From the NCBI GenBank assembly GCA_947259355.1, contig CAMYMF010000029.1:1-50677 (forward strand): a stretch of 50,677 nt of DNA. Reading direction: 5' to 3'. The notes under the pieces are model-generated. The model was not told where the DNA came from. It saw nothing but the letters and a program-made list of their open reading frames with translations, and did no database searches. The position numbers and the translations under genes were made by a program. Position 1 is the stretch's first letter. The number at the start of each line of letters is the position of its first letter. Source of the stretch: an uncultured Nitrospirota bacterium (GTDB lineage Bacteria > CG2-30-53-67). Positions 5,360-20,985 of this stretch are shown piece after piece.

Positions 5360-6910
5360 ATGAAGCGCGCGTTCTTCTTCCTCCTGGCGTTGTCCGTCTG
5401 GTTTGTCATGTCCGGCTGTTCCCATATCAGTCCGCCTGCCCCTAAGCAGCCGGTCGCGCTGACGGAGGATTACGGTGAGGAGCGAGACGTTCCCGAGACG
5501 GCGGCTGAATCAGAAGAGGTCTCGGAGCAGGCACTCATTGACGAGGCCCTGGAGTATTACCAGCAGTCGCAGGAGCTCTGGGAACAGGGCTTGATCGAAG
5601 AGACCATGGCCGCCCTGGACCAGAGTTACGCGTCCATCCTCGGCATCCCCCCTGACCGCGACCCGAACATCGCACAGCAGAAGGAGGACCTTCGGCTCCT
5701 GATCTCCAAGCGTATCCAGGAGATCTACGCGTTCCGACTCAGCGGATCCCAGGTTGGCAACAACGGCGCCATTCCTCTCGTCATGAACCGCTACGTGGAA
5801 CGCGAAATCAGGAATTTTCAGACCGTGGAGCGAGCGTTTTTCGTCGATTCCTACCGGCGCGCGGGGCGCTACCGCGATTACATCGAAGAGGAACTCCGCC
5901 AGGCGGGGCTTCCGGTGGAGCTGGTGTGGCTTCCCTTGATCGAAAGCGGCTACAAGGACAAGGCCTTTTCGCGCTCCCGAGCGCTGGGCATCTGGCAGTT
6001 CATCTCGTCCACCGGGGTGCGTTTCAACCTCAAGCGCGACCAATGGATCGATGAGCGGATGGATTTTCAGGAAGCAACCCGGGCCGCCATCGAATACCTC
6101 ACGGCCCTGCACGATCTGTTCGGCGACTGGACAACAGCCCTGGCGGCTTACAACTGCGGCGAAGGCAACGTCATGCGGGCCATCCGGCAACAGCGGGTCA
6201 ACTATCTCGACAATTTCTGGGACCTCTACCCCATGCTGCCCTCAGAGACGGCCCGGTATGTCCCGCGCCTACTCGCCACCCTGCACATCATCAATGCCCC
6301 GGAACAATATGGCTTCAATGATCTCGCGCAGGCCCCCCCTGTCACCTTTGACGAAGTCTGCACGCAAAAGCAGATGAAGCTCAGTGACATCGCCGCGGCC
6401 CTCCAGGTGAGCACCCGGACCCTGGAGGAGCTCAACCCCGCACTTCGCCAGAAGGTGACCCCCAACTACAGCTACACCTTGCGGGTGCCGGCACAAACGG
6501 GGGAGCTGCTGATGGCCAAGCTGGACGAGATTCCGCAATGCAAGGTAATGGTGCAGACCTACACCCGCCATCGCGTCCGAAACGGTGAGACCCTCTCACA
6601 AATCGCCCGCAAATACCGGACCTCCGTCCGCAAGATCGCCCGGCTCAACGGTATCCGGAACGTCTCCCGGATCCGGGTTGGTCAGAAACTGAAGGTGCCT
6701 CTGCGCTATCCGCTCACCAAGTTCAGCTCCGCCACGCAGGTCGCTTCGTCCTCGACGGGCTTCACCCGCTACCGTGTCCGTCGCGGAGACACGCTCTGGT
6801 CCATTGCGAGGAAATACAACACTTCCGTGAAGACCATCAAGAATCTAAACGGGTTGTCGAGCAATTTCCTCCACGCTGGGCAGGTGCTCCACGTCCCGGC
6901 GGGATCTTGA
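5360..6910 (+). CDS. mltD: Membrane-bound lytic murein transglycosylase D-like lipoprotein with LysM repeats
   Basis: Lipoprotein of 516 aa that cleaves peptidoglycan glycan strands in the periplasm. The N-terminal signal ends in lipobox VMSGC. The catalytic SLT domain spans about residues 170-290, with E195 of LIESGYKDKAFSRS as the likely catalytic acid, followed by ALGIWQF and the AYNCGEGNV motif. The C-terminal third carries LysM peptidoglycan-binding repeats: a diverged one near residue 345, then two clear ones beginning YTRHRVRNGETL and TRYRVRRGDTL. Length and order match MltD. Monocistronic: a terminator lies upstream and the next gene is convergent. Confidence 0.93.
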   Translation: MKRAFFFLLALSVWFVMSGCSHISPPAPKQPVALTEDYGEERDVPETAAESEEVSEQALIDEALEYYQQSQELWEQGLIEETMAALDQSYASILGIPPDRDPNIAQQKEDLRLLISKRIQEIYAFRLSGSQVGNNGAIPLVMNRYVEREIRNFQTVERAFFVDSYRRAGRYRDYIEEELRQAGLPVELVWLPLIESGYKDKAFSRSRALGIWQFISSTGVRFNLKRDQWIDERMDFQEATRAAIEYLTALHDLFGDWTTALAAYNCGEGNVMRAIRQQRVNYLDNFWDLYPMLPSETARYVPRLLATLHIINAPEQYGFNDLAQAPPVTFDEVCTQKQMKLSDIAAALQVSTRTLEELNPALRQKVTPNYSYTLRVPAQTGELLMAKLDEIPQCKVMVQTYTRHRVRNGETLSQIARKYRTSVRKIARLNGIRNVSRIRVGQKLKVPLRYPLTKFSSATQVASSSTGFTRYRVRRGDTLWSIARKYNTSVKTIKNLNGLSSNFLHAGQVLHVPAGS

Positions 6911-6980
6911 TCGCCAGGGCCAACAGACCTGCAAGATAGCTGCTGGCGGCGTCACGTACGCCATCCCTCGAAACCGTAGG

Positions 6981-7847
6981 CTAACCCATCAGTGTCCAGA
7001 ACCCCCGGGCCATGCCGTGAAAAAGTGCGGCCGCCAGACCGGGAACCGTGAAATCGCCGGATTGCCTTTCGAGAAAATCCCGAAGTGCGCCACCGTCGGA
7101 AGGCACGAAGAGGAGTTCGCCGTGTTCGTCCCTGTCGGGCGCCCCTTCGCAGAGCTCCCGGAGTTCCCCTTTCGTCCGCCTGACGGCAACGTCAAAGATC
7201 AGCTCCGGTTTGCGGGTCTGCCCATGGCGGATCAGCCCGAGGCAGTGCAGCGCCGACACGGCATCGGACGAGAGGTGGAATTCCTCCTGCAGTTCCTGCC
7301 CCATGGCGGTAAAGAGCAGGTTGCAACCGCTCAAGATTTGCTCGGGCACCACCAGCGCGTCCGGGTCCGGGTGGCCGCCGCAAACGTGCAGTTTGCCCCG
7401 ATCCGCGTAGACCTGCTCACTGCGTCGTGCGAAAAGGATGTACCCGTCGGCGGTGCTCACGGACCCGCAGACGGCGAGTCCGTCGGCCAGCGGCATCCCC
7501 TCGGGCGGCTTGTCGCCCCCGGACAGGGCGTAATTCGTACCCACCAGCTCCCGGTAATCGGTCTCGCCCAGCAATAGATGGAGCCCGCCGGCGCCCAGGC
7601 AAACCTGCTGCAGACTGAAGAGTTTCCCGTTGAAAAGATTGCGCTCGTGCGCCGCCGCGTCTTGCACGGCCGCCTGCCATGCGCGCGCCAACACGGGTTC
7701 GAACTTTCTTGCAGGCAGGGCGCGCTTTGCCGAAATGTGCAGTCGGAGGTCTTTTGGGCCGAAACGGCCGGCGGCCACAATCGTATATTGGTTGGTATGA
7801 ATGACGGGACGGTCCGCGCCGTCGTAGATGTGAAAAGGCCTTTTCAC
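6981..7847 (-). CDS. NUDT22-like Nudix hydrolase
   Basis: Protein of 288 aa with a C-terminal Nudix fold. The Nudix box is split as in animal NUDT22: GGHPDPDAL (157-165), a longer than usual insert, then QELQEEFHL (184-192), where canonical boxes have REUXEEXGU. TDYRELVGTNY (96-106) also resembles the TSYRDFLGTNW-type segment that precedes the Nudix domain in NUDT22. Human NUDT22 hydrolyses UDP-glucose and UDP-galactose; the same substrate here is inference. The catalytic Glu pair is kept but the first Arg is Gln. GTG start 20 bp after purN; cotranscribed with purM-purN, so a nucleotide or nucleotide-sugar role fits. Confidence 0.75.
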   Translation of the reverse strand: MKRPFHIYDGADRPVIHTNQYTIVAAGRFGPKDLRLHISAKRALPARKFEPVLARAWQAAVQDAAAHERNLFNGKLFSLQQVCLGAGGLHLLLGETDYRELVGTNYALSGGDKPPEGMPLADGLAVCGSVSTADGYILFARRSEQVYADRGKLHVCGGHPDPDALVVPEQILSGCNLLFTAMGQELQEEFHLSSDAVSALHCLGLIRHGQTRKPELIFDVAVRRTKGELRELCEGAPDRDEHGELLFVPSDGGALRDFLERQSGDFTVPGLAAALFHGMARGFWTLMG

Positions 7848-20415: not shown

Positions 20416-20985
20416 TCATTCCCCCCAGACTTCTGCCTTCTTCGCCCAGTCACTCCCGGGATACTTCTCCTTTAACTCCAGGAAGGCCTCCTTCAGGCGG
20501 ACGGGATCTCCCGAGTCCTTGTAGCGGCAGACCCCGCAGTAATAGACTGCGGCCGGGGCTGCAGAAGTTTCGGGATAGCGCGCCACGATCCGCTGGTACG
20601 CGTCAGCGGCCTCGCCGTAATGCTCCGCATGAAACGCTAGATTGGCAAGCCCCAGCTGCATCTCGCCGAGAAAATTCATCGGATCGAGAAAGCCCGTCAC
20701 GCGGTGGTGCTCCTTGCGGTTGGGATCGCAGATGATGAACGTGGGGGTCCACTGCACATCGAACTCTTTGAAATGCTTCATCTGGCTCGTTCCGTCGAGC
20801 TTGAGCGGGATAAAATGGCTCGAAACGAATTCGGCCACTTCCGGATTGGGGTACGTAACTGCACCCATCTTGTTGCAGCCGCCTCAACGGGGACTGAAAA
20901 AATCGAACAGGATCGGTTTGTTCTCCGAGGCACTCACCGCAAGCGCTTCGGCAAGATCTGTCTTCCAGGCAATTTCTCCTGCCAT
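20416..20985 (-). CDS. Thioredoxin-like selenoprotein candidate (UxxC motif) with TPR-like tail
   Basis: Reading through one in-frame TGA (20886-20884, codon 34) gives a 189-aa protein. ATG 20985 has a near-perfect ribosome site, AAGGAGGT, 6 bases upstream. The frame reads ILFDFFSPR-U-GGC-NKMGAVTYP, so TGA occupies the first position of a thioredoxin CxxC motif (U34-G-G-C37). The cis-proline loop is WTPTFIICD. The last about 80 residues form a TPR-like helical tail (AADAYQRIVARYPET). A bacterial-type SECIS-like hairpin lies 23 nt after the TGA. Sec-containing thioredoxin-like proteins are known in Desulfobacterota. Without readthrough the product would start at Met40 and lack the active site. 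selABCD genes are not in the window. Role inferred: thiol-disulfide or peroxide chemistry. Confidence 0.82.
20849..20866 (-). promoter_or_regulatory. Candidate bacterial SECIS element
   Basis: In the mRNA, GGGUGC pairs with GUACCC (6 bp, one G-U) around the 6-nt loop AGUUAC. The loop starts 23 nt after the UGA and has a G among its first two bases, which fits the general bacterial SECIS pattern. An alternative nearer stem CUGCA/UGCAG is also possible. Folding was judged by eye. Confidence 0.55.

Follow-up and report, generated by a model that had tools for sequence, protein, structure and literature searches.

Coding sequence and gene call

The window, the whole 50,677-nucleotide stretch that we analyzed, comes from an uncultured Nitrospirota bacterium. 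A frame of 189 codons (20416..20985) lies on its minus strand, starting with an ATG at 20985 and closing with a TGA stop codon (20418-20416); a further TGA stands in frame as codon 34 (20886-20884). This codon opens a UxGC motif, UGGC in the window, within the peptide FDFFSPRUGGCNKMGAVTYP, where U denotes codon 34 and the putative resolving Cys is encoded by codon 37. A ribosome-binding site, AAGGAGGTG, lies 5 nt before the ATG (20999-20991), and the same layout is found in L028 and L029. The preliminary description of this DNA had proposed a strong ribosome site with an ATG at 20985 and a TGA opening a UxxC redox motif, and all of these elements can be read directly in the sequence. Its expectation that standard gene calling would start at Met40 and lose the active site was also borne out, as the table-11 call comprises only a 150-amino acid ORF (20868-20416, minus strand) that lacks both Sec34 and Cys37.

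Scans for sigma-70 promoters and terminators at the locus found nothing, and Rfam gave no credible match at the site. Inspection of about 20 loci by eye did not reveal a conserved gene neighborhood; genomic context therefore gives no function for the gene.

Homologs and the distribution of Sec and Cys

Genome searches recovered 35 full-length homologs, bringing the family to 36 members with the window. The profile searches covered two sets, 386 genomes from across the domain and 396 from one other phylum, and one further member came from the phylum of a Cys-bearing genome. The nearest relative, from an uncultured Nitrospirae metagenome-assembled genome, is 85% identical and has TGA at the same codon, as do a second homolog from the same family (57% identity) and a planctomycete homolog (32–34%); distant homologs share 27–43% identity with the window protein. 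Codon 34 is TGA in 32 of the homologs and the Cys codon TGC in three (33 and three in the whole family), and no other residue occurs at this position; homologs with neither Cys nor Sec here, one of the two observations that the preliminary description had named as refuting it, were thus not found. Sec/Cys34, Cys37, Pro81, Gly98, and Ala126 are invariant in all 36 aligned sequences. Among the 396 genomes sampled from one phylum, 25 carried a member, in 24 cases with UGA, so that the family is fairly common where present. Plasmid records yielded weak thioredoxin matches only. Just upstream of the homologous gene of the nearest relative, there is a long inverted repeat, CGGTCCTGTTCGTAAATACGG ... 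CCGTATTTACGAACAGGACCG (L009, about 2910-2966), which was not seen at the corresponding place in the window.

These comparisons bear on the view that the gene is a pseudogene or carries a sequencing error, with a Cys codon mutated to TGA and only the Met40 ORF, or nothing, translated. A 150-amino acid ORF that could start from the ATG of codon 40 does exist, but it would lack the first part of the thioredoxin fold and Cys37, and we rejected this view, leaving it practically no probability, since TGA is conserved at the same codon in 32 homologs from many genera and several phyla and since protein and ribosome site show conservation upstream of it.

Selenocysteine machinery

The window's own genome (3.1 Mb, 94 contigs, 90% complete) contains all four of the genes whose presence the preliminary description had proposed to check: selC, encoding a tRNA-Sec with the anticodon UCA (71 bits), selB (404 bits), selA (630 bits), and selD (208 bits). 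The second observation named there as refuting, a lack of selB/selC, is therefore not seen. The selD gene (L025, contig C32, about 6674-7393) itself has an in-frame TGA, in the motif GAGUACK. In this assembly, it has an internal in-frame deletion of about 65 codons between two "VDD" stretches, where the nearest relative (L086) is intact. The deletion may be an assembly collapse or real; if real, the supply of selenium could be impaired. The genome of the planctomycete homolog, which is outside the set checked for tRNA-Sec, also has a selD with an in-frame TGA.

A check for tRNA-Sec was positive in 29 of 32 genomes with the Sec form and in none of three with the Cys form (Fisher p = 0.003, a value that ignores relatedness, the species not being independent). 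The three Sec-form genomes in which it was not found, G417, G571, and G633, are drafts of 230, 410, and 950 contigs and probably incomplete. The Cys members occur in two places in the tree, inside otherwise Sec-bearing groups, which suggests that Cys replaced Sec after loss of the machinery, a direction that we infer from an unrooted tree.

Hairpins downstream of the UGA codon

A short hairpin, GGGTGC-AGTTAC-GTACCC (20849..20866, minus strand), follows directly 3′ of the UGA codon in the window. The preliminary description had placed a SECIS-like stem-loop 23 nt after the TGA; this distance fits the loop, whereas the stem begins at 17 nt. The stability of the window hairpin, taken by itself, does not exceed that of shuffled sequence (z = 0.36), so that the claim was a weak one as made and could not be decided from one sequence. 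Comparative evidence, by contrast, was strong. Sixteen members including the window have a hairpin of the form GGRURC-loop-GYAYCC (type A), with the stem 17 nt after the UGA, and all six pairs form in all 16 sequences (96 of 96 cells). Pair 3 is A-U in 12 members and G-C in four, and pair 5 is G-U, A-U, or G-C. The four cells in which both sides have changed, all at pair 3, occur at two distinct places in the tree, the group of the window and L083, and the covariation score exceeded those of all 500 shuffles and of every slid version. Loop position 2 is always G; the bacterial SECIS as described in the literature calls for a guanosine in a small apical loop (PMC1088965).

Sixteen members of a second clade (support 99/95) have a different hairpin, CYCGGC-UGGAW-GCCGAG (type B), in the same stretch and closer to the UGA. 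L073, an additional member of the type-B clade, has a third hairpin at the same place, TGCGGCTC-GAACAA-GAGTCGTA. L078 branches beside the type-B clade yet keeps a type-A hairpin, GGATAC-CGTGAC-GTATCC, indicating that the SECIS design has been swapped within the family. No comparable hairpin was found at this place in the three Cys genes, where folding energies were −4.2 to −5.9 versus −8.8 to −24 kcal/mol in the UGA genes.

Codon choice was frozen at the same positions. When uniformity was scored relative to codon usage, with relatedness inflating the z-scores of all columns alike, the most uniform columns of conserved residues were, for type A, +10 (Thr ACG, 14/14) and +7 (Asp GAT, 12/12); for type B, they were +6 (Leu CTG), +8 (Ala GCC), and +5 (Arg CGG), with 16/16 in each column. 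All of these codons lie in the stem or loop of the hairpins. A comparison of the window gene with its 85% relative showed no nucleotide difference in codons 34–46, the lowest value for any such segment of the gene, and conserved residues are encoded by identical codons in 12 of 12 cases there versus 91 of 141 elsewhere; the same test against the 57% relative was not significant. Thus, protein constraint is not the only reason for the conservation of the hairpin, and, on this comparative sequence evidence, we conclude that the hairpin 17 nt after the UGA is a SECIS element.

UGA read-through is a known phenomenon, and codon 34 could in principle be decoded by a near-cognate Trp tRNA, through a code change, or by plain read-through rather than as Sec. 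We rejected this reading as very improbable: the gene's own stop codon is TGA, tRNA-Sec and SelB are present, the substitute residue is Cys, in three homologs whose genomes are without tRNA-Sec, and the hairpin is confined to the UGA genes, which fits SelB-dependent decoding. With read-through and the pseudogene set aside, the locus very probably encodes a selenoprotein with Sec at UGA codon 34, as judged from sequence comparison, and this protein is one that standard annotation has overlooked.

Domain architecture and predicted structure

The conserved thioredoxin-like protein that the preliminary description had predicted to continue past the TGA is supported by the full-length homologs and by Pfam, as Thioredoxin_2 and Thioredoxin_7 (PF13098 and PF13899) match residues 6–106 with 47.2 and 46.5 bits, against a gathering score of 27. 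With these scores, the redox motif, and a cis-Pro at P81 that is invariant in the 36 members, a thioredoxin fold can be assigned to approximately residues 6–110 (20656..20970, minus strand). PF13098 is matched by 36 of 36 members. The C-terminal part, approximately residues 101–189 (20419..20685, minus strand), is a TPR-like helical domain, where TPR_6 (PF13174) matches residues 110–140 just above its cut-off.

An AlphaFold2 model built on three sequences had a mean pLDDT of 83.5 and consisted of an N-terminal alpha/beta domain and five C-terminal helices of high confidence (pLDDT >90). The active-site loop is loose in the model, residues 34–39 having a pLDDT below 50. Foldseek ranked two YbbN/CnoX-type Trx-TPR chains first and second, with TM-scores of 0.31–0.33 of the query, followed by thioredoxin-like and TPR proteins; TPR structures matched residues 101–189. 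The VIA-align rows mostly reflected the TPR part and were of little use for judging the thioredoxin domain. By sequence, the nearest matches of the thioredoxin part (residues 5–110) were a putative disulfide isomerase and the C-terminal domain of DsbD. Inspection of the N-terminus by eye showed no evident signal peptide, and the protein is probably cytosolic.

Discussion

We describe a Trx-TPR protein in which SelB and tRNA-Sec would insert Sec at UGA codon 34, with the downstream hairpin as the SECIS element. The Sec34 selenolate would attack an oxidized partner, either a disulfide or a sulfenic acid, Cys37 would resolve the mixed selenenylsulfide, and the thioredoxin/thioredoxin reductase system of the cell would recharge the protein, while the TPR part might bind this partner. 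Where a lineage has no Sec machinery, Cys would take the place of Sec. Since the structure and matches of the thioredoxin and TPR parts, the lack of an evident signal peptide, and the lack of conserved neighbors point in this direction, we favor, as the somewhat likelier function, a Sec-dependent disulfide reductase of the cytosol that docks through its TPR part and of which the substrate and the reductant are presumed.

The main functional alternative is that the selenoprotein acts not as a simple reductase but as a CnoX-like chaperedoxin, its TPR part serving as a holdase while clients receive redox protection. The biology of CnoX, which has a thioredoxin domain at the N-terminus and a TPR domain at the C-terminus (PMC6282202), the same domain order in our protein, and the two top Foldseek ranks speak for this possibility. 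Against it, the TM-scores are low, the thioredoxin domain is by sequence nearer to the DsbD C-terminal domain and Thioredoxin_2/7, the predicted TPR part is short, and no match to the CnoX family was seen. We consider a chaperedoxin role unlikely, though well worth weighing beside the reductase that we favor. An architecture that combines Sec chemistry with a protein-binding module offers a testable function.

It is similarly doubtful, in our view, that the protein simply belongs to a family already known by a vague label, the listed category "thiol:disulfide interchange protein". This category is defined by PF13098/cd02953 and UxxC (PMC13188914 Table 1, PMC2398784), with WP_011366075.1 as the reference protein; its selenoproteins were reported in early surveys, in Geobacter and Syntrophus, and were tagged cd02953 in the GOS survey. 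The match of all 36 members to PF13098 and the shared UxxC motif favor membership, whereas no TPR is mentioned for the category in the literature that we searched. The category is loosely defined and, compared by description only, may overlap with the Trx-TPR family. Our tentative proposal, somewhat less probable than its negation, is that the members form a distinct, unnamed selenoprotein family of Sec "mini-chaperedoxins", in which Sec is usual and Cys exceptional, which spans several bacterial phyla, and in which two clade-specific SECIS elements have been accommodated in one reading frame.

Annotation pipelines still cut selenoproteins at UGA, and the occurrence of UGA at the same codon in 32 other genomes means that a whole family is cut short by standard annotation. 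The preliminary description had missed that the protein has a TPR part at its C-terminus, how far the family extends, that its SECIS elements covary and are swapped between clades, and that curated selenoprotein models do not include it. The occurrence of two SECIS designs within a single gene family amounts to a natural experiment on how a recognition site for SelB is replaced under protein-coding constraint.

Comparison with known systems

Among curated models, the Trx-TPR family matches the NCBIfam selenoproteins VPGUxxT, Trx7/PDZ, and TsoB as distant thioredoxin-fold relatives, which differ from it in architecture and Sec motif. The window protein did not reach their cut-offs (35 of 275, 20 of 300, and 44 of 805 bits, respectively), nor did any other NCBIfam model reach its cut-off for this protein, and the best E-values over all 36 sequences suggest scores well short of these limits. 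As the family lies outside the NCBIfam models, the active site is probably missing from the annotation of its members.

The protein resembles the C-terminal (gamma) domain of DsbD, which is partly the best match of residues 5–110 among solved and curated sequences, but it is not fused to a membrane part, is apparently cytosolic, carries a TPR domain, and scores 36 bits against a cut-off of 330. With CnoX/YbbN, its top Foldseek matches, it shares the order of the domains, thioredoxin at the N-terminus and TPR at the C-terminus. It differs from them in its length (189 versus about 285 amino acids), in having Sec instead of Cys or Ser, and in a thioredoxin domain closer to DsbD-gamma/Thioredoxin_7; no YbbN/CnoX entry appeared among the sequence-based matches listed, and the fold match is at a low TM-score.

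Among described selenoproteins, there is a close likeness to the "thiol:disulfide interchange protein" type, which likewise has a Thioredoxin_2-type fold with Sec as the first residue of UxxC; as compared by description only, the category differs in that no TPR fusion is described for it. None of the 119 prokaryotic selenoprotein families in a 2026 review is TPR-bearing (PMC13188914), and our literature search found no paper joining a UxxC thioredoxin-fold selenoprotein of this kind with TPR. UxxC thioredoxin-fold selenoproteins as such were already known; the fusion of a TPR domain to one of them is probably new.
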